This document shows positions 6,965 to 58,152 of a DNA stretch of 64,000 nucleotides, piece after piece. Position numbers and translations under genes: made by a program. This DNA comes from Verrucomicrobiaceae bacterium (GTDB lineage Bacteria > Verrucomicrobiota > Verrucomicrobiia > Verrucomicrobiales > Verrucomicrobiaceae). The DNA is taken from NCBI GenBank assembly GCA_016795375.1, contig JAEUHJ010000167.1, positions 1 through 64,000 on the forward strand, read 5' to 3'. A model generated the notes under the pieces. It searched no databases. It saw only the letters and a list, made by a program, of their open reading frames with translations, and was not told where the DNA came from. Positions within the stretch are counted from its first letter, which is position 1. Every line of letters begins with the position of its first letter.

Positions 6965-7641
6965 TTAGGTTTCAGAGAGAAGGGAGCGGAGAGATGCGGC
7001 AATCGCTGCAAGATGCCAAAATGCAGCACCAAAAATCATGCCAATCCCCGCTCCAAAGCCGAGCGACGACATCCAGTCTCGGGCTTCATTGAAGGTGACA
7101 CCTGCGCGTTCATAGATCGCAACGTCGCTACTGTCCTCGACTCTGCGTTGATATTCGGCCAGATGTTCGAGCAGCGTCTTGTAAGCTGCTTCCAGACGAT
7201 CTCGCTCCGCTGGCTCCATGGTCTTGCTGCTTGCGGCACGTTTTTCCTCGAACTCATCGAACAACCGCTTGAAGAACTTCGACTGGCTCTGGCCTCGGAT
7301 GGCCTGTCGAAATGCAATGAACTCGTCCAGCAGCGCATTCAGATATGTTCGGACATAGATGCCATCGATTCCTGACGCGACGACATTGAAGATCGCGCTT
7401 CCTTTGGATTGCGCCGCAATGATCCGCACTTCGGATTCAGCAAGTTCCGGATTCAGGGCACGAACACGTTCACTGGCGCGGCGTTGGAACTCAGGAGACT
7501 CGAATGGGCGGCGGATTTGTCCATGCGGAACTGTATTGTCATGATTCCGTCAAAAAGCTTGTTCCGTGGCAAGGTCAATTTGCCGTTGATTTTGGAGAAA
7601 ATAGTGAGGCATTCGATTCCTGGGGCGGCAGAAAACGACAT
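6965..7641 (-). pseudogene. Probable frameshifted hypothetical protein with C-terminal membrane helix
   Basis: The downstream frame has its first usual start (GTG) at 7429 and ends at 6965. It is rich in charged helix (residues about 20-105) and ends with a hydrophobic helix WMSSLGFGAGIGMIFGAAF. Upstream of that GTG the same frame stays open for another 40 or so codons of protein-like sequence (RRPFESPEFQRRASERVRAL), back to a TGA near 7551. A second frame, open from 7641 or earlier, reads convincingly up to LPRNKLFDG and then turns into low-quality sequence. Joining the two by a one-base change near 7545-7549 gives one continuous protein of about 225 residues. No family recognised. It could also be two short overlapping ORFs. 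Confidence 0.45.
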
Positions 7642-8334: not shown

Positions 8335-9729
8335 ATGCCACATTCCGCCACCAATGACGACATGGACGCCATTCTTGAGGTGATGGACGGGCATCCTGCC
8401 GGAGTCACGCTCGGGGAGCTGATGCTTGTTAAAAAGCTGCGTCTTTCCACCCGCACGCTCCAGCGCCGTCTGGAGCGGCTGGTGGCGGAACAGCGTCTCG
8501 TCGCCGTGGGCACCACGCGTGCGCGGCGTTACTATCTGCCTTCTCAAAACACGCCGGGGTCCGAAACACGCTCCGCAGCCTCCAAAACGCCCGCATCCAC
8601 CGTTTTCGGCACGGAGGCGCAAAAACTTCGTGCCGCGATCCGCCGCCCGGTCACGCAACGCACGCCCGTGGGCTATCAGGGCCGCTTTTTGGACGCGTAT
8701 CAGCCGAACAAGACCTTTTACCTGCCCGCCGCCACGCGGAAGCAGCTTCTCCAGATGGGCCAGGTCGGCCTTTCGGAGCTGCCGGCAGGCACTTACCTGC
8801 GTCAGGTGCTCCAGCGTTTGCTCGTGGACCTTTCCTGGAACTCCAGCCGCCTCGAAGGCAACACCTACTCGCTGCTGGAGACGCAACGATTGCTCGAACT
8901 CGGCTCCAGCGCCGAAGGCCACAGCGCGCGGGAGACGCAGATGATCCTTAATCACAAGGCCGCCATCGAAATGCTGGCCGAGGAGGCCGAGGGCATCGGC
9001 TTCAACCGCCACACCATCTGCAACCTGCACGCCATGCTGTCCGACAACCTCATGAGCGAGCCAGAGGCATGCGGACGCCTGCGCAGCCGCGCCGTCGGCA
9101 TCAGCGGCACCGTGTTTCACCCGCTGGAGGTGCCGCAGCTCATCGAGCAGCGTTTTGACCAGCTCCTCGCCAAGGCGGAAGCCATCGGCGATCCCTTCGA
9201 GCAGGCGTTCTTCATCATGGTGCATCTGCCGTATTTGCAGCCGTTCGAGGACGTGAACAAACGCGTCTCCCGCCTCGCCGCGAACATCCCGCTCATCCGG
9301 CACAATCTGTGCCCGCTCTCCTTCATCGAGGTCGAGCAGGCGGACTATGTGGACGGCACGCTCGTCGTGTATGAGCAGACCCGCGTCGAATGCCTGCGCG
9401 ATGTCTTTGTGTGGGCCTACCAGCGATCCTGCGCCCGCTACGCCGCGGTGCGCCAGTCCCTCGGCGATCCCGATCCCTTCCGGCTGAAGCATCGCGCCGT
9501 CATCGGTGATGCTGTGCGAGCTGTCGTGCAGGGCAAAATGAATGCCGCGGCCACGAAGCGTGCGTTGACGAAACACGCCGCCGCCTTGCCCGCCGCCGAA
9601 CGCGCTCAGTTCATCAAAGTCGTGCAAAAAGAGCTCTCCGCGCTGCATCCTGGCAGCATCATGCGCTACCGACTGCGGCCGGGCGAGTTTGCGGCGTGGT
9701 CAAAGCATCAAATGCGGCGACTTCGCTGA
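8335..9729 (+). CDS. Fic-family protein with degenerate Fic motif and N-terminal HTH
   Basis: 464 residues from the ATG at 8335 (a TTG 48 bases earlier is in frame but less likely). Residues about 5-60 form a winged-helix-like DNA-binding region (GVTLGELMLVKKLRLSTRTLQRRL). An inhibitory-helix signature S-x-x-x-E-G occurs at Ser170 to Gly175, inside the family core. The Fic motif is at residues 302-313 and reads QPFEDVNKRVSR instead of HxFx(D/E)GNGRxxR. The catalytic His is Gln and the first loop Gly is Val. Canonical Fic enzymes transfer AMP to Ser/Thr/Tyr; this one may be inactive, use another nucleotide chemistry, or act as a regulator. It lies next to a TA pair in an accessory patch. Confidence 0.8.
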   Translation: MPHSATNDDMDAILEVMDGHPAGVTLGELMLVKKLRLSTRTLQRRLERLVAEQRLVAVGTTRARRYYLPSQNTPGSETRSAASKTPASTVFGTEAQKLRAAIRRPVTQRTPVGYQGRFLDAYQPNKTFYLPAATRKQLLQMGQVGLSELPAGTYLRQVLQRLLVDLSWNSSRLEGNTYSLLETQRLLELGSSAEGHSARETQMILNHKAAIEMLAEEAEGIGFNRHTICNLHAMLSDNLMSEPEACGRLRSRAVGISGTVFHPLEVPQLIEQRFDQLLAKAEAIGDPFEQAFFIMVHLPYLQPFEDVNKRVSRLAANIPLIRHNLCPLSFIEVEQADYVDGTLVVYEQTRVECLRDVFVWAYQRSCARYAAVRQSLGDPDPFRLKHRAVIGDAVRAVVQGKMNAAATKRALTKHAAALPAAERAQFIKVVQKELSALHPGSIMRYRLRPGEFAAWSKHQMRRLR

Positions 9730-18872: not shown

Positions 18873-20345
18873 ATGTTCGAACAAACCTTCAAAAACATCG
18901 ACGACGTCCTCTGGAAGGACGCCGGCTGCACCAGCGAGCTGGATTACTCCGAGCAGTCCTCATGGCTGCTGTTCCTGAAATACCTCGACAGCCTGGAGCA
19001 GGACAAAGCCGCCGTCGCCGTGCTGGAAGGCAGGAAACACACGCCCATCCTCGCCCCGGAGTTCCGCTGGTCCGCCTGGGCCGCGCCCAAGGATCCGAGC
19101 GGCGCGATCGACCACAACCGGGCCCTCACCGGCGAAGACCTGCGCGACTTCGTGAACGGGAAACTTTTCCCCTACCTGCACGGATTCAAACAGCGCGCCA
19201 CCAGGCCGGATACCATCGAATACAAGATCGGGGAAATTTTCGGCGAGATCCGCAACAAGATCCAAAGCGGCTACAACCTGCGCGACATCATCGACCATGT
19301 GGACGAACTGCGGTTTGGGACGCAGAAGGAAAAGCACGAGCTGTCCCACCTCTACGAGGCCAAGATCAGGAACATGGGCAACGCCGGGCGCAACGGCGGC
19401 GAATACTACACGCCGCGCCCGCTCATCCGCGCCATCATCCGCGTCGTCGCGCCCCGCATCGGCGAGACCATCTACGACGGCGCCTGCGGCTCCGCCGGGT
19501 TCTTGTGCGAGTCGTATGATTATCTGACCCAGGCGACCAAATTGGCGACGAAGGATTTGGCGACCCTCCAAACCAAAACCTTTTACGGCAAGGAGAAGAA
19601 GTCCCTCGCCTACGTCATCGGCGTGATGAACCTCATCCTCCACGGCATCGAAGCACCCAACCTCGTCCACACCAACACCCTCGCGGAGAACCTCGCCGAC
19701 ATTCAGGAAAAGGACCGCCACCACATCGTGCTGGCCAATCCGCCCTTCGGCGGCAAGGAGCGCCCGGAGGTGCAGCAGAACTTCCCCATCCGCACCGGCG
19801 AGACGGCCTTCCTCTTCCTCCAGCACTTCATCAAGACCCTCAAGGCCGGCGGCCGCGCCGGCGTGGTCATCAAGAACACCTTCCTTTCCAACACCGACAA
19901 CGCCTCCGTCAGCCTCAGAAAACACCTGCTGGAAAGCTGCAACCTCCACACCGTGCTCGACTGCCCCGGCGGCACCTTCCAGGGCGCGGGCGTGAAGACC
20001 GTGGTCCTGTTCTTTGAAAAAGGCGCGCCCACCCGCCGCGTCTGGTTCTACCAGCTCGACCCCGGCCGCAACCTCGGCAAAATCAACCCGCTCAACGACG
20101 CGGACCTCGCGGACTTCATTGAGAAACAGAAGACCTTCGCCGACTCCGACCGGAGCTGGAGCGTGGAGGCCAGGGACATCGACCCGGCGACCTGGGACCT
20201 CTCCGTGAAAAACCCCAACGGCGGCGAGGAAGTGCAGCACCGCAGCCCCGAACAAATCATTGCGGAAATGCAGCAGCTCGACACCGAAGCCCAGGCTTCT
20301 TTACAAAAAATCAAAGCCCTCCTGGGTTCACGATTCACCGACTAA
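18873..20345 (+). CDS. hsdM: Type I restriction-modification methyltransferase subunit HsdM
   Basis: 490 residues from the ATG at 18873 (a GTG at 18858 is in frame). The N-terminal helical HsdM domain runs to about residue 120 (FEQTFKNIDDVLWKDAG). The SAM-binding region follows GGEYYTPRPLI and reads DGACGSAGF where DPxCGSGGF is usual. The target-adenine motif NPPF is near residue 289, within NPPFGGKERP. A C-terminal helical segment binds HsdS. It methylates adenine N6 as M2S. It is the first gene of the island and lies 6 bases upstream of the HEPN gene. The 100 bases before it contain no clear promoter. Confidence 0.9.
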   Translation: MFEQTFKNIDDVLWKDAGCTSELDYSEQSSWLLFLKYLDSLEQDKAAVAVLEGRKHTPILAPEFRWSAWAAPKDPSGAIDHNRALTGEDLRDFVNGKLFPYLHGFKQRATRPDTIEYKIGEIFGEIRNKIQSGYNLRDIIDHVDELRFGTQKEKHELSHLYEAKIRNMGNAGRNGGEYYTPRPLIRAIIRVVAPRIGETIYDGACGSAGFLCESYDYLTQATKLATKDLATLQTKTFYGKEKKSLAYVIGVMNLILHGIEAPNLVHTNTLAENLADIQEKDRHHIVLANPPFGGKERPEVQQNFPIRTGETAFLFLQHFIKTLKAGGRAGVVIKNTFLSNTDNASVSLRKHLLESCNLHTVLDCPGGTFQGAGVKTVVLFFEKGAPTRRVWFYQLDPGRNLGKINPLNDADLADFIEKQKTFADSDRSWSVEARDIDPATWDLSVKNPNGGEEVQHRSPEQIIAEMQQLDTEAQASLQKIKALLGSRFTD

Positions 20346-20351
20346 GCACTC

Positions 20352-20768
20352 ATGAATGCCCCGCAAGACATCCGCTGGAAACAGCGATTTCAAAACTTCA
20401 CCAAAGCACTTGTCCGCCTAAGTGACGCCGTCGAGTTGGCGACGGAGCGGGAACTGACCGACCTGGAGCAACAAGGGCTGATCCAGGCTTTTGAGTTCAC
20501 GCATGAACTGGCTTGGAACACGCTCAAGGATTACCTGATCTATCAGGGTGCTGATCCCTCCATCGTCGGCAGTCGCGATGCCACCCGATTGGCCTTCCAG
20601 AATCAACTGATCGGCAACAGCGAGGCATGGATGGAGATGATCAAGAGTCGCAACCAGACCTCCCATACCTACAACCAGGAAACTGCCGATGAGATTGTCG
20701 CCCTCATCATTGCTTCCTATTATCCCGAGTTCGAGCAACTGCGCGTCCTGCTCACAGGCAAACTCTGA
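20352..20768 (+). CDS. hepT: HepT-like HEPN toxin / nucleotidyltransferase substrate-binding protein
   Basis: 138 residues, all-helical, of the HI0074 (nucleotidyltransferase substrate-binding) type. The HEPN ribonuclease motif R-x4-H-x-Y is complete: Arg100, His105 and Tyr107 in SRNQTSHTYN. In studied HepT/MntA pairs HepT is an RNase toxin and MntA silences it by adding AMP to the Tyr of this motif. The conserved GSRDATRLAFQNQLI segment is also present. It lies 6 bases after hsdM and 2 bases before the MntA-HsdS fusion gene, so it is an internal cistron of the RM operon. Confidence 0.85.
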   Translation: MNAPQDIRWKQRFQNFTKALVRLSDAVELATERELTDLEQQGLIQAFEFTHELAWNTLKDYLIYQGADPSIVGSRDATRLAFQNQLIGNSEAWMEMIKSRNQTSHTYNQETADEIVALIIASYYPEFEQLRVLLTGKL

Positions 20769-20770
20769 CC

Positions 20771-22297
20771 ATGCCCTACGGCCTTCCCAGCGAAAGCATC
20801 GAACAGATCCGCGCGGTCTTTGCCCGCCATCCGGAGCTGAAGCAGGCCATTCTCTACGGCTCCCGCGCCATGGGAACCCAGCGCGAGGGATCGGACATCG
20901 ATCTCACGCTCACGGGCAAGGATCTGAACCTCAGAGTCCTTTCCCGCATCGAAACCGAACTCGACGACCTCCTCCTGCCCTACCCATTCGATCTCTCCCT
21001 CCGCCGCCAAATTAAGAACGACTCCCTGCTCAACCACATCGAACGAGTGGGAGTTCTGTTTTACGAGAAGGATAATGGAGACCAAGGGAAACAGCGGGAA
21101 GATGGAATGAAGGAGGGGTGGGAGTGGAAGAAGCTGGGGGAGGTGTTGGCGAAAACTGAAACCACCGACCCGACACGCTCGCCAAACGCTGAGTTCGACT
21201 ACATCGACGTTTCCAGCGTCTCGAATGAAACACTCACGATCCAGGAAACCCAGCGTCTGAAAGGAAAAGACGCGCCGAGCCGAGCGCGACGGCTTGTCAG
21301 AACCAACGACATCCTCTTTGCGACGATTCGCCCGACGCTCCGCAGAATCGCCATCGTGCCCGAAGAACTGGACGAGCAGGTTTGCAGCACGGGTTACTTT
21401 GTTCTTCGCGCTACACCCGCGGTGGATGCCCGCTTCGTCTTCTACTTTCTCCAAACCGGAGACTTCATGGCTGCAATGGAGAAGCTGCAGAAGGGCGCGA
21501 GCTATCCTGCTGTTACAGACGGCGACGTCCGCTCGCAGCCGTTCCCCCTCCCCCCGCTGGCCGAGCAGCGGCGGATCGTGGGGGTGCTGGACGAAGCGTT
21601 TGCCGGGCTGGCGCGCGCCAAAGCCAACGCCGAACAGAACCTCCAAAACGCCCGCGCCCTCTTCGCCAGCCACCTCCAAGCCGTCTTCTCCCAACGCGGA
21701 AACGGGTGGGTGGAGAGGACGCTGGGGGAGCTATGCACGGCTGTGGAGTATGGGTCTTCCTCGAAATCCAAGAAGGAAGGAAGGTTGCCCGTGCTGCGAA
21801 TGGGGAATATTCAAGACGGCAGGCTTGATTGGGGAAATCTCGTTTATTCTGACAACGAAGCGGAAAACGAAAGATACCAGCTCAAGCATAATGACGTTTT
21901 GTTCAATCGGACAAACAGCCCTGAGCTGGTTGGGAAAACCGCAATCTACAAAGGCGAACGGCCCGCAATCTTTGCCGGCTACCTCATTCGTATTCACCGA
22001 AAGGAAGACCTGCTCGACGCGGACTACTTGAACTACTTTCTAAACAGCCGCATTGCCTTCGACTACGGGAAGACGGTTGTGATTTCGAGCGTCAACCAAG
22101 CAAACATTAACGGCGCGAAGCTGAAAACGTATCCGATTCCGACTCCTCCGCTCCCCGAACAACGCCGCATCGCCACTCAACTCGACGCGCTCTCCGCCGA
22201 GACGCAGCGGCTGGCGGGGGTGTATGCGCGGCAGTCGGCGGCACTGGCGGAGTTGAAGCAGGCCCTGCTGCACCGGGCCTTCGCCGGGGCGCTGTGA
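20771..22297 (+). CDS. hsdS: MntA nucleotidyltransferase fused to type I specificity subunit HsdS
   Basis: 508 residues in one open frame. Residues 1-100 are a minimal nucleotidyltransferase of the MNT group: GSRAMG at 30-35, DxD at 42-44 (the GSx10DxD motif) and a third Asp at 74. A purine-rich linker covers about residues 100-113. From there it is HsdS: first target-recognition domain about 115-260, conserved helix about 268-310 (PPLAEQRRIVGVLDEAF), second target domain about 315-465, second helix to the end (PPLPEQRRIATQLDAL). No stop separates the two parts. An internal ATG at 21107 with a purine-rich upstream stretch could also start HsdS alone. The second target domain is visibly more AT-rich than its surroundings, as often seen with exchanged HsdS domains. 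Confidence 0.85.
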   Translation: MPYGLPSESIEQIRAVFARHPELKQAILYGSRAMGTQREGSDIDLTLTGKDLNLRVLSRIETELDDLLLPYPFDLSLRRQIKNDSLLNHIERVGVLFYEKDNGDQGKQREDGMKEGWEWKKLGEVLAKTETTDPTRSPNAEFDYIDVSSVSNETLTIQETQRLKGKDAPSRARRLVRTNDILFATIRPTLRRIAIVPEELDEQVCSTGYFVLRATPAVDARFVFYFLQTGDFMAAMEKLQKGASYPAVTDGDVRSQPFPLPPLAEQRRIVGVLDEAFAGLARAKANAEQNLQNARALFASHLQAVFSQRGNGWVERTLGELCTAVEYGSSSKSKKEGRLPVLRMGNIQDGRLDWGNLVYSDNEAENERYQLKHNDVLFNRTNSPELVGKTAIYKGERPAIFAGYLIRIHRKEDLLDADYLNYFLNSRIAFDYGKTVVISSVNQANINGAKLKTYPIPTPPLPEQRRIATQLDALSAETQRLAGVYARQSAALAELKQALLHRAFAGAL

Positions 22298-22435
22298 GCG
22301 GCTGGACCGGAACCCTGACTTGCGGTCCACGGGGCCGGGCATATCCATGCCATCGCCACAGGAGACTGCTCGCGCCGAAAAAACGTCGTTTCTTCGACAC
22401 ATCCCGGCGCTCGTGCTCAACAAACGCATCCATTC

Positions 22436-22462
22436 TTTACAGGTTGGCGGCAACGTGATAAG
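22436..22462 (+). promoter_or_regulatory. Possible promoter for the island fic gene
   Basis: TTTACA (22436-22441), 15 bases, then GATAAG (22457-22462), about 20 bases before the fic ATG at 22483. TTCTTTACA occurs again right at the start codon (22476 onward). It sits in a 185-base gap between hsdS and fic, the only real gap in the island, so fic and hsdR may have their own transcript. Elements are imperfect. Confidence 0.3.
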
Positions 22463-22482
22463 GGAACGCCGATTTTCTTTAC

Positions 22483-23559
22483 ATGAACACGCTGCGTCCA
22501 TTGCCGCTTCAGGATCCAACCTCGCTGGAAACTCGCGAGGTCTGGGCCGCGCTCACCGAAGCGCACCGGCATTTGGCGGAGCTGAAGGGCTTGTGTGCCT
22601 CGCTGCCGAATCAGGGCATCCTGCTGGACACACTGGGCATCCAGGAGGCGAAGGACAGCTCGGAGATCGAGAACATCATCACCACGCACGACCAGATCTT
22701 CGCCTCTCAGTCTGATGCGGCGGTGACTCCCGCCGCGAAGGAGGTGCGGCACTATGTGTCCGCCCTGCGCACGGGCTACGAAGCCGTCCGGGATTCGCGC
22801 CTGATCCGGCTGGAGACGGTGCTGGCCGTGCAGGCGGAACTGGAGCAAAACCGTGCGGGCTTGCGCAGGCTACCGGGCACAGTCTTGAAGAATGAAGCGA
22901 CAGGAAAGGTGGTCTATGAGCCGCCGCAGGATGCCGCCGCGGTGGAGCGATTGATGGGAAACCTCATCGACTTCATCCACGCAGACGACGGTCTGGATCC
23001 TCTGCTGCGCATGGCCATCGCGCATCATCAGTTCGAGAGCATTCACCCTTTCTATGACGGCAATGGCCGCACGGGGCGCATCCTCAATTTGTTGATGATG
23101 CAGCGCGACGGCCTGCTGGATGTGCCGGTGCTTTATCTCAGCCGCTACATCACGACGACGAAGGCGGACTACTACCGTCTGCTGCAAACGGTGCGTGATG
23201 AGGATCGCTGGGCGGAATGGTGCCTCTACATTCTGCGGGGCGTGGCACTGACCTCGCGCAGTGCGATCTCATCGGTGACAGCCTTGCGTGAACTGATGCT
23301 GAAGACCAAGCACGACATGCGGGACAAGCTGCCGAAGCTCTACAGCCAGGATCTGCTGAACAACCTCTTCCGTTACCCCTACACGAAGATTGAGTTCGTC
23401 GAGCGCGAACTTTCCGTGTCGCGCATCACGGCGGCAAAGTATCTGGATCAACTGACCGCGGCGGGCTTCGTGACGAAGCGCAAGGTCGGCAGGACGAACT
23501 TCTACATCAACGCGCCGCTCTTTGCGCTGTTGAGCAACGTGACCCTCGACACACCATGA
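22483..23559 (+). CDS. Fic-family AMP-transferase-like protein in RM island
   Basis: 358 residues. An N-terminal Fic/DOC helix region has the inhibitory motif S-x-x-x-E-N at Ser59-Asn64 (SSEIEN). The catalytic motif HPFYDGNGRTGR at residues 188-199 is canonical and complete. The C-terminus (about 270-358) is a winged-helix domain (FVERELSVSRITAAKYLDQLTAAGFV). This matches class II Fic proteins, which AMPylate proteins when the inhibitory Glu is displaced. Its stop overlaps the ATG of the hsdR remnant by 4 bases (ATGA), so it is translationally coupled to restriction. Fic genes are recurrent neighbours of type I RM operons; their role there is not established. Confidence 0.9.
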   Translation: MNTLRPLPLQDPTSLETREVWAALTEAHRHLAELKGLCASLPNQGILLDTLGIQEAKDSSEIENIITTHDQIFASQSDAAVTPAAKEVRHYVSALRTGYEAVRDSRLIRLETVLAVQAELEQNRAGLRRLPGTVLKNEATGKVVYEPPQDAAAVERLMGNLIDFIHADDGLDPLLRMAIAHHQFESIHPFYDGNGRTGRILNLLMMQRDGLLDVPVLYLSRYITTTKADYYRLLQTVRDEDRWAEWCLYILRGVALTSRSAISSVTALRELMLKTKHDMRDKLPKLYSQDLLNNLFRYPYTKIEFVERELSVSRITAAKYLDQLTAAGFVTKRKVGRTNFYINAPLFALLSNVTLDTP

Positions 23560-51553: not shown

Positions 51554-53269
51554 TCAGATTTGTTTCAACCCCAGTAGCAACTCCTGTACTTCGCGGCCCT
51601 TCGTTTCAATGAGGTCGATGAGTTCGGCGGAGCTGCGGGTGTCTTCGGTGCTCTTGGCATTGGGATTGACGGCTTTGAGGTCAAAGGCTGCGTCTTCGAT
51701 GGACTGGGCTTTGGACTCGATCTCGCGGATTTCGCGTTCGCAGGCGGTGATGAGTTTTTTGGCTTCCTCCAGCTTCTCGGTCTTGGCTTTGGTCTTCTTG
51801 AGCTGGTCGAGCTGTTCTTGATGCTTCTTGAGCCGGGCTTTCGGCTCAGCGGCAGTGGCGCGGAGCTTGTCAGCTTCCGTTTTGGCCTGCCGACGGCGGT
51901 CAGCGATGTTGAGAGTCCAGCTTCGGTCGCCGTCAACGCGCGTTGGCAGCAGTTTGAAGAACTCCGCGAGATGCTGGCGGGTGAAGGGTGTCTTCTTCGC
52001 CACCTTCACGCCGCTGAGATCGAAGTACCAAATCTTCTCCGTGGCCCTGCCTTTGGTGAAGAACAGCACGTTCGTTTTCACGCCTGCACCTGTGGCGGTG
52101 AAGACGCCGCCGGGCAGGCTCAGCACGCACCAGAGATCACAGGTGTCGAGCAGGCGGCGCTTGGTTTTGATGAAGGCGTCTTGGTTCGTTTGAAAAAGGA
52201 TGCCCTCTGGCAGCACGATGGCGCAGCGGCCTTCGGGCTTGAGTGTCTCCATCACGTCCTGGAGGAAGAGCACCTCCGTGGCGCGGGATTTGTAGGCGAA
52301 GCGGGTCTGCGCGTCCTCGCCCTCCTTGCCGCCAAAGGGCGGATTGGTCAGGATCACGTCAAACTGCCCCGGCGCGTTCTGGTAGAGGCCGCTGTAGATT
52401 TCCTCGCGCGTCAATGTGTTGCCATGCCAGAGATGCGGCTCGTCGATACCGTGCAGCACCAGATTCGCCAAGGCGATGGGATAGACGAGGTTCTCCTTCT
52501 CCCGGCCGTAAAAGGTCTTGTGCTTCAACGCTTCGATTTGATCGCCCGTGGCGTTTTCACCCAGCGCGCCGCGCATGAACTCATACGCCTGCGCCAGGAA
52601 GCCGCCCGTGCCGCAGCAAGGATCGCACACGGTTTCTCCGACTTTCGGCGCGATCACCTCCACGATGGCGCGGATGACCTCACGCGGGGTGAAGAACTGA
52701 CCGCCGTCATTGCCCTTCTCGCCCATTTTCAGCAGGAGGCCCTCGTAAATCTGGCTCAGGGCAAAGACGTGCGTGTCATCCACCGTGTCGAGGCTGATCT
52801 CGTGAATCTTGTCCAGCACATCGAGCAGGTTCCGCTGGGTATCGACGCGGGTGCGGTCCACGCTGGACATGATCTCGCTCATCACCTTTTGACGCGGCGT
52901 GGCGTTCGGTTTGTCCTTCAGCGCCTTCAGGTGAGGGATGAGCCGCGTGTTCACGAAGTCGTAAAACGCGTTTGTCGTGCTCTCCACCAGCTTCTTGCGC
53001 TCCGGGGCCTCCGGCGCGGCCCAGTCCCGCCAACGAAACGGTGGCAAAAGCGAGGGGCGAAAGTCCGCTCCGACCACCGCCGCGTTTGCCGCCTCGATCT
53101 CCTCCGTTTCGTCCAGGATGCGCAGGAAAAGGATCCACGTCAGCTCCGGCACATACTGCAGCGCCCCCGCGCAGTTCGAGCGCCGCAGGATGTCACACAC
53201 GCTCCAGATCGCGCTGTCCAGCCCGGCGCGGGTGGTCGTTTTGGGCTTTGTCTTTGGTTTGGCTGCCAT
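51554..53269 (-). CDS. hsdM: Type I restriction-modification methyltransferase subunit HsdM (second system)
   Basis: 571 residues. The HsdM N-terminal helical domain runs to about residue 160. GGQFFTPREVIRAIVEVI leads into the SAM motif DPCCGTGGFL (about residue 215), and VILTNPPFGGKEG holds the NPPF catalytic motif (about residue 307). The C-terminal 130 residues are a long charged coiled coil (LKKHQEQLDQLKKTKAKTEKLEEAKK), longer than in the first HsdM. Adenine N6 methylation. It is the last gene of the operon, 2 bases after the DUF1828-type gene. It is only distantly similar to the HsdM at 18873, so the two systems are not recent duplicates. Confidence 0.9.
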   Translation of the reverse strand: MAAKPKTKPKTTTRAGLDSAIWSVCDILRRSNCAGALQYVPELTWILFLRILDETEEIEAANAAVVGADFRPSLLPPFRWRDWAAPEAPERKKLVESTTNAFYDFVNTRLIPHLKALKDKPNATPRQKVMSEIMSSVDRTRVDTQRNLLDVLDKIHEISLDTVDDTHVFALSQIYEGLLLKMGEKGNDGGQFFTPREVIRAIVEVIAPKVGETVCDPCCGTGGFLAQAYEFMRGALGENATGDQIEALKHKTFYGREKENLVYPIALANLVLHGIDEPHLWHGNTLTREEIYSGLYQNAPGQFDVILTNPPFGGKEGEDAQTRFAYKSRATEVLFLQDVMETLKPEGRCAIVLPEGILFQTNQDAFIKTKRRLLDTCDLWCVLSLPGGVFTATGAGVKTNVLFFTKGRATEKIWYFDLSGVKVAKKTPFTRQHLAEFFKLLPTRVDGDRSWTLNIADRRRQAKTEADKLRATAAEPKARLKKHQEQLDQLKKTKAKTEKLEEAKKLITACEREIREIESKAQSIEDAAFDLKAVNPNAKSTEDTRSSAELIDLIETKGREVQELLLGLKQI

Positions 53270-53271
53270 GC

Positions 53272-54060
53272 TTATGCAGCGAGCGAAAGATTCAGCCGGT
53301 CTGTTTCCGCAGGGAAGCTGACAATGTTGGAAACGCTCTCCAGTCGTTTCAGGTCTTCCTCGCGAAACACGTCATTGCTGGAGTCATACACCGTCAGGCA
53401 CTGGTAATCATTTCGCGTGGGTGTGATGTCATACCAGCGGGCAAATGCCTCGTTGCTCAGGGTGTGGGCTGCGAAACGGTTGGCGGTGGAGAGTATCTGC
53501 ACCAGCGAGCGCATGCGCTGTCCTTCAACGAGGAAATCAAACGACACCTCCTTGCCATACTGGCCCGCGATCTTGACTCCAGGCTGGTAGGGACGGTCCA
53601 GCGTGACGATGAACTCCTCAAAGTCCTCCGTGAGCGCCAGCGGTGCGCGCAGCCTTTGTGTGTAGGCCAGGTCGGCCACGCGGATGCAGACCTGCGCCAG
53701 CCGCAGCATCGCATCCGGCAGGTCTTTCATCTCCTCTTTCTTGAGCCGGACACGGAAGGCTCCGCCCTCCTGTTCCACGCCGAGCGTGGCGCAGATGTCC
53801 GCCAGGGTCTGCTTGCGTTTCTGGCTGGTCCAGGGCTTCACATGCAGGTCCAGCAGGTAGGCGGTCGTCTGGCCTTTGTCCGAAAGTTCGAAGCCCTCAA
53901 AAAGATCACCATCCACCTTGAGAAACACATCAATCTGAGAGCCATCCGGGTAGCGGAAGGGCGTCGCCAGACGCAGCGACCCGTCACGCACCTGGTCACA
54001 GGCAGTGATGAGGCAGACATCGGTGATGAGGCTGCGGATGTTGGAGCAGTCAGGCGTCAT
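53272..54060 (-). CDS. DUF1828/DUF1829 protein inside the second RM operon
   Basis: 262 residues. The N-terminal half resembles DUF1828 (TPFRYPDGSQIDVFLKVDG, FELSDKGQTTAYLLDL), a small domain found in phage and mobile-element neighbourhoods. The second half resembles DUF1829 (FDFLVEGQRMRSLVQILS, ARWYDITPTRNDYQCLTVYDSSND). Neither domain has a proven activity; no nuclease or nucleotide-binding motif is evident. The ATG overlaps the stop of the preceding 141-residue gene by 4 bases, and the stop is 2 bases from hsdM, so it is a tightly coupled internal cistron. An anti-phage or RM-modulating role is inference from position only. Confidence 0.75.
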   Translation of the reverse strand: MTPDCSNIRSLITDVCLITACDQVRDGSLRLATPFRYPDGSQIDVFLKVDGDLFEGFELSDKGQTTAYLLDLHVKPWTSQKRKQTLADICATLGVEQEGGAFRVRLKKEEMKDLPDAMLRLAQVCIRVADLAYTQRLRAPLALTEDFEEFIVTLDRPYQPGVKIAGQYGKEVSFDFLVEGQRMRSLVQILSTANRFAAHTLSNEAFARWYDITPTRNDYQCLTVYDSSNDVFREEDLKRLESVSNIVSFPAETDRLNLSLAA

Positions 54061-54482
54061 GGTTCGTTAAACGTGCCGGTGTGCTTGATGTTGGCCTGCT
54101 GGAGCAGAATCTCCCAGACTTCTTTCACCGTGGGCAGGTTTTCCAGGTCCGGGCGGGCCACGGCGGCAGGCAGGTTATTGCGTGGATCGCTGTCCTTGCG
54201 CAGGTCGTGCTTGTGCGTCCGCCCGACAAGCGGGTGGATAGTCCCGTTGACGCACACCCTGCAGATCGGCCCGGTCCCACGCAGCACGAAATTCAAGGTG
54301 ATCGAGGGTATCCCGGGCTTGTAGGTGCCGTTGAGCACCACGTCGTAATTCAGAACATTGTCCACCTTCACATCCTCAAACACCAGATTGGGGCTGGTGG
54401 GCTGCTTCAGTTCAAAAACAATGTCGGAAGTGATCTGCTTGTCGGGCAGGTTCCGCAGGGCTTCAAATTCGGCACGATTCAT
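54057..54482 (-). CDS. Hypothetical protein inside the second RM operon
   Basis: 141 residues, no family recognised. The middle is beta-rich (VFEDVKVDNVLNYDVVLNGTYKPGIPSITLNFVLRG), followed by PICRVCVNGTIH with a C-x-x-C, and HPLVGRTHKHDLRK, with a helical end (VKEVWEILLQQANI). The Cys pair with nearby His residues could bind metal, but the pattern is incomplete. It lies 10 bases after hsdS and overlaps the DUF1828-type gene by 4 bases (ATGA). The two unknown genes together form a module between hsdS and hsdM. A toxin-antitoxin or modulator pair is possible but unproven. Confidence 0.7.
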   Translation of the reverse strand: MNRAEFEALRNLPDKQITSDIVFELKQPTSPNLVFEDVKVDNVLNYDVVLNGTYKPGIPSITLNFVLRGTGPICRVCVNGTIHPLVGRTHKHDLRKDSDPRNNLPAAVARPDLENLPTVKEVWEILLQQANIKHTGTFNEP

Positions 54483-54492
54483 AATGAGGCGA

Positions 54493-55671
54493 TTATAGGC
54501 TCCCGAACGCCTCCCGCAAGAACGCGCCCGGCAGCTTGTCGAGGGCTTCGAGCTGGGTGCCCAGGGCCTTTTGGAGCTGCTGGAGGTGCGTGAACTGTTC
54601 CCGCAACCGCGCGGCGATCTGGCGCTGGGTTTTCAGCGGAGGAATTGGTATGTCCGTGGCGGCGAGTTGGGCACGTCCGATCTTTTTCATCGTGTCGCTG
54701 GCACCGGAGGCACGCTCCTGCCAGTAACCTGTCACAAACAGGTAGGAAAACCAAGCGGCGGCATAGGCAGGCACCACACCATCTCTGGCTCGCAGCCGGA
54801 TGGTGAGATCAGAGGCTACCAACGGCTGCTTGCTGCCTTCAAAGAGCGCGACACGGCCAACCAACGCGGGTGTGTTGCTGCGGGCGATCATAATCTCGCC
54901 AGAAGAGATGCGGGCATCAGCCACATCATCCTCCATCATGAGCGCGTCTTTCACGCCAGACTCGGTGAATCCAGTCTCTTGCAAACAGGCTGTGGTCACA
55001 GCCCTCACCGCCGCTGTGCCTTTCAAATTGATCGAACGGGCGGGAAGGAAATCGCAGGCATCTCCCACACTGCGCACAGGCCATTCGTTTGTCTCGTCCT
55101 CCTGAAAAATCTCCTTCAAAAGCCGTGTCGGGAGACTGGCGGCCGCCTTCGCCTGCTCCTCGACCCGGCGGCGGGTTTCTTCGACGGCGGTCATCTGGGA
55201 TTTCAGGTGCGTGGCGAGGCGGCGCTGGGTGGGGAGGTCGGGAAGCTCGACCGGTTGCGACAAAACCTGCTTGTCGGACACCGCTGGATAGTTTGCGCCT
55301 CGCGCAAGCTCCGTCAGGGCTTCGACAAAAGCAGGTGTTTGAACCGTGTAGAACAAGAAGTCAGCATCCACACATTTTGAAGGCCGCAGAACACAAAAAC
55401 CCGTGCTACAAACGGATTCGTCCAACTCCAATGGGATACATGCCACCGCATTCAGGTTTGGGCGAGTGGTGGCGATGATGACGTCTCCGGCCCGAACGGC
55501 ATTTCGGGCACGGCTTGGAGCATCTGCGCCCAAAAGCGTCTTTGCAGCGACGACTTTTTTACTGCGATTGTCCACCGCCGAGATGTCCACATATCGAAAC
55601 ACTCCATTAGGCTTCCGTGTCGGATCGACAGTTTCGGTTGGAACACAGATTTTACCCAGTGTCGTCCTCAT
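54493..55671 (-). CDS. hsdS: Type I specificity subunit HsdS (second system)
   Basis: 392 residues: first target-recognition domain about 1-150, conserved helix about 152-190 (LPDLPTQRRLATHLKSQM), second target domain about 195-335, second helix to the end (PPLKTQRQIAARLREQFTHLQQL). The start is fixed by the ATGA overlap with hsdR. The first target domain strongly resembles that of the HsdS at 20771: shared DPTR-PN, DAPSRAR, ATxRP, ELDExVCSTG and VLRP/VLRA patterns in the same order. The second target domain is unrelated. It determines the bipartite recognition sequence. Confidence 0.9.
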   Translation of the reverse strand: MRTTLGKICVPTETVDPTRKPNGVFRYVDISAVDNRSKKVVAAKTLLGADAPSRARNAVRAGDVIIATTRPNLNAVACIPLELDESVCSTGFCVLRPSKCVDADFLFYTVQTPAFVEALTELARGANYPAVSDKQVLSQPVELPDLPTQRRLATHLKSQMTAVEETRRRVEEQAKAAASLPTRLLKEIFQEDETNEWPVRSVGDACDFLPARSINLKGTAAVRAVTTACLQETGFTESGVKDALMMEDDVADARISSGEIMIARSNTPALVGRVALFEGSKQPLVASDLTIRLRARDGVVPAYAAAWFSYLFVTGYWQERASGASDTMKKIGRAQLAATDIPIPPLKTQRQIAARLREQFTHLQQLQKALGTQLEALDKLPGAFLREAFGSL

Positions 55672-58094
55672 GCCGCAAACAACCTCTCTTTCGTTCCCGT
55701 GAGCAGTTTCGCCGGATCATCGAACAGCCGCAGCGCGGGGATGCCGCCGGCTTTGACGACCATGGGGGTGTTGAAGATGTGCGGGGTCTCCAGCGCTTCC
55801 GTTCCACCGAGGGAGAACTGACTGGCGATGGCCTTCACGGTGGCGGCGGTGGGCGGGGGCATGAGCTGGAGCCAGGGCTGCTGCTTGTAGGTGAAGGCAT
55901 AGGCGCGGTCCGCCCGCGTCTGGCGCACGATGCCGTAGCCCACCTCGCCCAGCACGTCGTAGAGATCGCACTCGGCGGCTTCCTGGGCCACTTGCAGGGC
56001 GCGGGGTGAGAAACCGCCGCGCACGATGCTGTCAATGAGGCCGCGACGCTCCGGCGGCAGCACCCACAGCCTGCGGAACTCGGTGATGCTCCCGGCCTGG
56101 GCGATGAGCCGCTGCGCGATGTGCTCCCGATACTGCTCCAGTGTCACGCGGGCATGGCGGCCCTCCAGCGTGGCGGTGAGGTAGCGCCCGGTGGGCTCGA
56201 TGCGGATGGTGACGCCCTCGACGATGGCGGGTGGCTCCGCAGGCGGAGGTGGCGTTTTTTTCTCGCCGGAACTGCCTTTGAACTTCGTGAAAAACTCCCG
56301 CCCCAGCAGCGCGGTGGCCTCCGTGTAGTCAAACACGCGGAACATCATCTTTCCGCTGTCAGGGTCCAGCCGCGTGCCGCGCCCCAGCATCTGCGCGAAG
56401 ACGATGGGGCTGCGCACATACTGCATGAAGGCGATGTTTTGCAGGCAGGGCACATCGACGCCGGTGCTGAGCAGATCGACCGTGCACGCGATGAAGTGGG
56501 ATGAGGCGCTGCCACGCAGATCCGGCACATGATCCGTGCCGCCGGACTTCGCGGTGCATTTGAAGGCGAAGTAGGCCTTTGCCTCCTGCCCGTGCGCCAG
56601 GCACCAATCGCGGTAGAGATTGCCAAGCTGCTCGCTCATGGCCTCCGCATGGCGGTCACTGGCGCAGAAGAGGATGGTCTTTTGCTCCGGCGTGCCACCG
56701 TGGGTGATGAGCTGCTCCAGCAGATGCTGCGAGAGAGCCAGAACACGCTCCGGCAGCAGCAGGCGCTCATCCAGCTCGCCGGGGCTGTATTCCTCTTTCA
56801 AGTTCGCGGAGGTGATGGGTGCGCCGGTGGCGCTGCTTTTAAGATTTTTCGCCTCCAGCTCGGCGCGGGTCACATTCCGCAGCCGCTCGGCCTCGGTCTG
56901 GCCTTCGTGGAAGAGATCAAAGGTGAAAATCTCCGGCGGGGCCAGGTAGCCGTCCTCGATGCCCTGGGAGAGCGTGTATTCATACACCGGCTCGCCAAAG
57001 TGTTTCACATTGTCCCGCCACTTGGCCTCATCATGGCTGGCCTCGCTGGATTTCTTGCCCAGCTCGATCTGCCGCGGAGTGGCGGTGAGGCCGATCTGCA
57101 CAGCGGCGGGATTTTCCTCCAAAATGAACTTCCAGTCACCCCACGCGGAGCGGTGACACTCGTCGATGACGATGTGGGAGAAGGTGTTCTTTTCGGCGTA
57201 GTGCTTGAAGAAGAAGTTCCGCGCCTCCTTGCCGCGGTCGCCATCCAGCGTCTGGTAGGTGGCGATGTGGATGCGGGCGTTTTTGGCGAAGTTTTTGCCA
57301 TCCTCCGTCTCATACACCTCCGCCACATCGGAGCCGAAGAGGTTCCGAAACGCCCCGAGCGCCTGCGAGCGCAGCTCATCCCGATCGCACACGAAAAGCG
57401 CCTTTCGCAGCAGCCCGGCATCGGCAATGCGCTTGAGCAGATTCACCGCGATGAAGGTCTTTCCCGCACCCGTGGCGAGACTCAGCAGCGCACGCAGCTT
57501 TCCGCCCGCCAGCGCCTCAAACACGGCCCGGATGGCCGCATCCTGATAATACCGCCGCACCGCCTCGCCACCCGCATACGGAATGAGCAGCGGACGCGCG
57601 GCCTCGGAGTCCAGCGAGAAGCCTTTCCCGATCTCATACCGCTGCCGCAGCGCCTCTGGCGTGGGAAACTCGCTCATCGGCCGCGCCGGCGAAACCTGCC
57701 CGGTGAAGTGGTCATACTCGATGAAGGCATGACCATTGCTGGCGAAGACAAACGGGACATTGAACCGCTTCGACGCGCCGGAGTAGTCAATCCCCTGCTG
57801 AAGCCCCTCCGCCGGGTCTTTCGTCTCCGCCTTCGCCTCGATGTAGGCCAGCGCCACCGGCTGCGCACTGGCGCTGATCTTGAAACGAAGCGTGTAATCG
57901 ACGCGACCCTTCGACAACCGCCGTGCCTCGCCCTCAATGACCTCGATCCCGCCCGCCGTCTCCTCCCGGCGGATGTGCTCCTCCGTCCACTGCGCCGCGT
58001 AGAGCCGCGGATCGATCAGTTTTGCCCGCGTGTCCGCCTCTCCGTATGGCTCGCGGTCTTCGAGAGTCCAGGGTGCGTGTGAGAGGGCGGGCAT
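55668..58094 (-). CDS. hsdR: Type I restriction subunit HsdR (second system)
   Basis: 808 residues from the ATG at 58094 (another ATG at 58142 is in frame). The N-terminal PD-(D/E)xK nuclease has VDYTLRF and AYIEAKAET (about residues 83-108). Walker A is LATGAGKTF (about residue 210), the DEAH-type box is VIDECHRS and the following TATP is present. The helicase C-terminal motif is GRGTRLDPDSGK. All motor and nuclease elements are therefore intact. It cuts unmethylated DNA after translocation, with M2S. It is the first gene of the operon; its stop overlaps the hsdS ATG. Its nuclease domain is homologous to the truncated HsdR at 23556. Confidence 0.9.
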   Translation of the reverse strand: MPALSHAPWTLEDREPYGEADTRAKLIDPRLYAAQWTEEHIRREETAGGIEVIEGEARRLSKGRVDYTLRFKISASAQPVALAYIEAKAETKDPAEGLQQGIDYSGASKRFNVPFVFASNGHAFIEYDHFTGQVSPARPMSEFPTPEALRQRYEIGKGFSLDSEAARPLLIPYAGGEAVRRYYQDAAIRAVFEALAGGKLRALLSLATGAGKTFIAVNLLKRIADAGLLRKALFVCDRDELRSQALGAFRNLFGSDVAEVYETEDGKNFAKNARIHIATYQTLDGDRGKEARNFFFKHYAEKNTFSHIVIDECHRSAWGDWKFILEENPAAVQIGLTATPRQIELGKKSSEASHDEAKWRDNVKHFGEPVYEYTLSQGIEDGYLAPPEIFTFDLFHEGQTEAERLRNVTRAELEAKNLKSSATGAPITSANLKEEYSPGELDERLLLPERVLALSQHLLEQLITHGGTPEQKTILFCASDRHAEAMSEQLGNLYRDWCLAHGQEAKAYFAFKCTAKSGGTDHVPDLRGSASSHFIACTVDLLSTGVDVPCLQNIAFMQYVRSPIVFAQMLGRGTRLDPDSGKMMFRVFDYTEATALLGREFFTKFKGSSGEKKTPPPPAEPPAIVEGVTIRIEPTGRYLTATLEGRHARVTLEQYREHIAQRLIAQAGSITEFRRLWVLPPERRGLIDSIVRGGFSPRALQVAQEAAECDLYDVLGEVGYGIVRQTRADRAYAFTYKQQPWLQLMPPPTAATVKAIASQFSLGGTEALETPHIFNTPMVVKAGGIPALRLFDDPAKLLTGTKERLFAA

Positions 58095-58152
58095 GGGTGT
58101 GACAAGAGATGCTGGAGCCGCTATCTCAAGGCAAGAAAGCATTATTCAACGG

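Follow-up and report, generated by a model that had tools for sequence, protein, structure and literature searches.

A candidate toxin-antitoxin-type PDC-M24 gene pair between hsdS and hsdM of a type I restriction-modification operon in a Verrucomicrobiaceae bacterium

The gene pair and its host operon

The window analysed here is a stretch of 64,000 nucleotides from the genome of a Verrucomicrobiaceae bacterium. Its second restriction-modification (RM) operon lies on the minus strand in the order hsdR, hsdS, A, B, hsdM, where A and B denote the two genes that are the subject of this work. The ORF calls and the evidence for each assignment are as follows.

55668..58142, minus strand: hsdR, type I restriction subunit of the host operon (ResIII 2e-34; EcoEI_R_C 1.3e-6; NCBIfam EcoAI-type 1.5e-118, below its cut-off)
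54493..55671, minus strand: hsdS, type I specificity subunit of the host operon (Methylase_S 9.8e-15; PADLOC Specificity_I 2.7e-48)
54057..54482, minus strand: A, 141 aa, PDC-M24A, putative toxin (ORF; PADLOC PDLC04533 6.9e-13; family alignment; dN/dS 0.14 against L033)
53272..54060, minus strand: B, 262-aa DUF1828 protein, PDC-M24B, putative antitoxin or regulator (ORF; Pfam DUF1828 1.9e-14; PADLOC PDLC04540 1.9e-47; dN/dS 0.06 against L033)
51554..53269, minus strand: hsdM, type I methyltransferase subunit of the host operon (N6_Mtase 8.6e-58; HsdM_N 6e-10)

A previous sequence-only reading had placed two genes at exactly these positions between hsdS and hsdM, with a short overlap and narrow gaps, and the ORF coordinates bear this out: A and B overlap by 4 bp (ATGA), 10 bp separate hsdS from A, and 2 bp separate B from hsdM. 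A TATAAT sequence is present at the hsdS stop and is kept in a close relative, L033, described below; a strict scan for an internal promoter found none. Searches of A and B against Pfam, PADLOC and NCBIfam revealed no Hsd-type domains. Another N6 methyltransferase of the window is encoded at 19329-20240.

Protein A, which had been described as belonging to no known family, indeed has no match in Pfam or NCBIfam, but it is matched by the PADLOC PDC-M24A profile over profile positions 2-142 of 151, and the adjoining B is matched by the PDC-M24B profile. PDC-M24 is a PADLOC phage-defence candidate, and the A-B pair is thus already catalogued, with A in a divergent subfamily (PDLC04533) that is without a Pfam match. 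The earlier labelling of B as a DUF1828/DUF1829 protein holds for DUF1828, but the DUF1829 score of 14.4 bits falls under the Pfam cut-off of 22.2 bits. PDC-M24 has so far been a catalogue name; a literature search found no paper naming it and no experimental test of it, and its probable defining source, going by a citation in PMC13092281, is a preprint by Payne et al. (2024). The catalogue entry is the part already known, and the invariant arginine and histidine residues of A, the resemblance to the toxin TumE and the pair's outliving of an RM operon, all described below, are new.

Genomic distribution and relatives of the pair

The occurrence of the pair in type I operons and other defence islands, a search that the sequence-only reading had proposed, was examined across the phylum. 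PDC-M24B occurs in 14 of the 276 genomes surveyed, the window's own included, and nine of the 13 other loci lie in RM or BREX-like clusters. The pair stands beside hsd genes at L021, L022, L023, L029 and L032 (hsdS in the last three being read by eye), beside type III mod/res genes at L025, in MmeI-like and Eco57I-like contexts at L024 and L030, respectively, and with DUF6079 and a methylase in a BREX-like context at L028; L020, L026, L027 and L031 fall outside this set. In a control using N6_Mtase alone, this domain was present within 10 kb at four of the 13 loci, against 0.37 expected (P about 6e-4). Among the neighbours at individual loci, TIR- and SLATT-like ORFs lie near the L020 pair and queC/queE-like ORFs beside the L031 pair, and the pairs at L022 and L023 follow reverse-transcriptase-like ORFs; all of these were read by eye apart from a reverse transcriptase Pfam match in L003 (the same locus as L023).

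The two genes are closely tied to each other. A gene in the A position lies upstream of B at all 12 phylum loci whose contig extends there (spread over two frames at L026), the overlapping tandem arrangement is found at nearly all loci, and no A was found without a neighbouring B; B-like N-terminal fragments without A occur at L036 and L037. Distances among A proteins and among B proteins are correlated across 22 loci (r=0.94, reached by none of 2000 permutations), as expected of genes inherited together. Gene order is not fixed, since A and B are convergent rather than tandem on the viral contig L062 (4944-6180). Pairs are also carried on plasmids (Acetobacter, pRSB223 and Aerococcus) and on viral or prophage-like contigs, where some adjoin repressor-like and ImmA-like ORFs (read by eye). 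For the window's own proteins, no match to A was found on plasmids, no viral-contig relative of its A subfamily was found, and tblastn of B against phage records gave no match.

Two further relatives were found in a species-genome collection. L033 (UBA2429) is 96% identical to the window in A and 93% in B, and L034 (Chthoniobacteraceae) is 74% and 77% identical, respectively. A and B are real genes under purifying selection, with dN/dS well below one for both against L033. The hsd genes of L033 are reduced to two short hsdR fragments and the 3' end of hsdS, with an hsdM that still aligns across residues 14-571; both A and B have remained intact. The gene ahead of the L034 pair matches RepB-primase weakly (20.0 bits against a cut-off of 24.3), and tblastn found no R, S or M genes at this locus. 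The pair therefore persists without a complete RM system and, being found without restriction genes and intact after the decay at L033, appears to be a unit of its own and not a set of RM subunits.

Two peculiarities of L033 concern the history of the locus. A stretch of about 100 bp from the hsdS 3' end is duplicated on either side of A-B (7462-7561 and 8796-8896, 91% identical), and next comes an ORF whose HipA_2 match is below threshold; the repeat possibly records a past movement of the module or of a second hsdS. Additionally, the window and L033 differ at synonymous sites far less in A (dS 0.14) than they do in B (dS 0.68), a hint that recombination or gene conversion has acted around A and the end of hsdS.

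The conserved site of protein A and its resemblance to TumE

Alignment of 14 diverse A proteins revealed only five invariant columns, namely R75, H83, H90, H92 and A109 in window numbering. This R...H...HxH set contradicts the initial impression that neither protein has catalytic motifs. The C-x-x-C noted earlier near histidine residues is present (C74-x-x-C77, close to H83, H90 and H92); the histidines are those invariant across the alignment, but the cysteines are conserved in just three close relatives, and a zinc knuckle was rejected on this ground. A cupin-like HxH(x)3-4E site and an HNH nuclease were also considered for A; both are unsupported, and the lack of a PDB relative for the model described below does not exclude them. 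At L029, L031 and L032, the A position is occupied by a gene that equals A in size and has no HxH motif; these genes share RVRG, GWHxN and NxH motifs instead. A direct profile link between them and the A family is weak (probability 2.6%, above 100 of 100 shuffles), and they possibly encode another effector that shares the DUF1828 partner.

Window A does not match Pfam DUF6978 (PF22398), and a profile comparison of its subgroup with the DUF6978 and other A proteins is marginal (P=0.02, reached by 2 of 100 shuffles). The tie between the two rests mainly on PDLC04533 matching both window A (7e-13) and the DUF6978 proteins of L003 (5.6e-5) and L020 (0.0016), together with a common motif and the place before DUF1828. 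The DUF6978-DUF1828 pair of L020 is assigned to the same two PADLOC entries as window A and B, and the DUF6978-type protein of the phage contig L059 reads RLCVNGTPH...GTHWH where window A reads RVCVNGTIH...GRTHKH.

Structure prediction, also proposed at the outset, was informative for a relative and not for window A itself. The AlphaFold2 model of window A is poor (pLDDT 51) and its fold search was uninformative, while that of the DUF6978 relative L039, built from 14 sequences, reached pLDDT 90.7 and pTM 0.85. It begins with an N-terminal helix, continues in antiparallel-type strands, one of which bears the HxH, and ends in a C-terminal helix. No convincing relative of the L039 model was found in the PDB (Foldseek best E 0.34; VIA-align best Z 4.9), and it resembles one viral protein without assigned function (E 4.8e-4). 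Sequence searches of solved structures likewise turned up nothing credible for A, B, DUF6978, DUF1828 or TumE. Since TumE itself has no PDB match (PMC10584680), the missing match of the A family is neutral with respect to a link between the two.

TumE (DUF6516, PF20126) is a validated translation-blocking toxin (PMC10584680). Sequences for comparison were fetched from plasmids using two bait sequences as leads, and most matches were annotated as DUF6516 or TumE. The A family aligned with TumE by hhalign with a probability of 72% (P=3.4e-5, reached by none of 100 column shuffles), and the invariant R, H and HxH of the family were aligned to TumE; the three-sequence subgroup to which window A belongs was not significant when compared alone (0.4%). 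Window A has no match to the Pfam TumE model up to E=1, and none of 59 phylum genomes searched contained TumE. The likeness extends to the order of elements (strand, R-x-[DN], HxH, short strand, C-terminal helix) and to the organization in two genes with the toxin, or in our case the putative toxin, first, several of the fetched TumE genes preceding an overlapping HTH gene. Conversely, A has an additional N-terminal helix, and its partner is a DUF1828 protein rather than the RelB-like or HTH antitoxin of TumE. TumE has two helices packed on a seven-stranded antiparallel sheet; the DUF6978 model has two helices and about ten strands.

Possible roles of the pair

We lean, if only somewhat, towards A-B being a self-contained toxin-antitoxin-type (abortive-infection) PDC-M24 module that a type I RM operon carries as cargo, a reading drawn from sequence comparison. 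We infer from the same comparisons the toxicity of A, its neutralization by B, and the target, trigger and defence role of the pair. The toxin would be A, a small alpha/beta protein whose invariant residues include an Arg...His...His-x-His set and which would act like TumE, probably as an RNase or another translation-blocking effector. The DUF1828 protein B, as antitoxin or sensor, would bind A and hold it inactive, possibly regulating the two genes as well, and may free A upon infection or loss of the operon. The weak points are the lack of significance of the window's A subgroup against TumE together with the missing Pfam TumE match, the upstream genes without HxH at L029, L031 and L032, the absence of a structure match, and the size of B, which as the larger protein could itself be the effector. 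The original suggestion of defence or anti-anti-restriction cargo survives in its first half: a defence component fits the PDC-M24 candidacy, the RM and BREX-like enrichment, the prophage-like contigs and the plasmids, but an anti-anti-restriction role is unsupported because the pair is found without restriction genes and outlasts their decay in L033. A bolder and improbable version would make PDC-M24 a distant TumE-type branch with DUF1828 as a new antitoxin class, serving as a back-up in RM and BREX-like loci that would stall or kill cells in which a phage has disabled or withstood restriction.

It is similarly improbable that the pair is a selfish, addiction-type toxin-antitoxin cassette with no defence role, hitch-hiking in mobile loci that include RM operons. 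Such a cassette could be expected on the plasmids and phage or prophage-like contigs where the pair is seen, behind the primase-like gene of L034, and surviving at L033 after the loss of hsdR and hsdS; the strong RM and BREX-like enrichment, the exact intergenic positions occupied there and the PADLOC candidacy argue against it. A reversal of roles, with B as the effector (nuclease-like, for example) and A as a small inhibitor or sensor, is less probable again. B is larger, has near-invariant residues of its own (P34, D61, L69 and D175) and has no assigned fold, but the invariant Arg/His set and the TumE resemblance belong to A, B-like N-terminal fragments occur without A whereas no A was found without B, and DUF1829-type partners are described as antitoxins in HipAD-like systems (PMC12548924, PMC13092281). 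Least probable is a role for A and B within the type I enzyme itself, as accessory subunits or as regulators, where they would tune restriction or counteract anti-restriction proteins, since the tight fit between hsdS and hsdM and the recurrence beside hsd genes are set against relatives with type III, MmeI-like, Eco57I-like or DUF6079/BREX-like genes or with no RM at all, and against the intact pair of L033.

For the toxin-antitoxin-type module, published descriptions offer a parallel. A DUF3037 protein neutralizes a HipA-like kinase in a validated defence pair (PMC12548924), and the HipAD partner DS-6B carries DUF3037 and DUF1829 (PMC13092281). By these descriptions, the window pair resembles HipAD/DS-6/PDC-M66, a validated two-gene system with a DUF1829-bearing toxin partner, but it lacks a kinase and DUF3037, and the DUF1829 score of B is below the cut-off. 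At L029, A-B is followed by a DUF3037 gene, and the HipA_2 match of L033, also sub-threshold, lies behind A-B. Taken together, these partners and neighbours favour B as an antitoxin or regulator, without proving it.

A toxin-like gene inside an hsd operon is also known in the PrrC-type anticodon nuclease, which can back up restriction as a second line. That nuclease is a single large protein bound by Hsd subunits; A and B are two small genes, A having its own partner, and also occur free of RM.

Were A a TumE-like toxin kept in check by a DUF1828 antitoxin, there would be a mechanism for this recurrent pair of uncharacterized domains, and DUF1828 and DUF6978 would be explained. The locus would then be a further example of toxin-type back-ups inside restriction operons, and the other RM operon of the window seems to hold one as well. 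In that type I operon (19329-23559, plus strand), a HEPN-type NTase_sub_bind gene (20352-20768) is followed by an HsdS with a fused nucleotidyltransferase domain (20771-22297) and by a Fic gene (22483-23559), which together have the appearance of a second toxin-antitoxin-like insert in which the antitoxin-type domain is fused to the specificity subunit.
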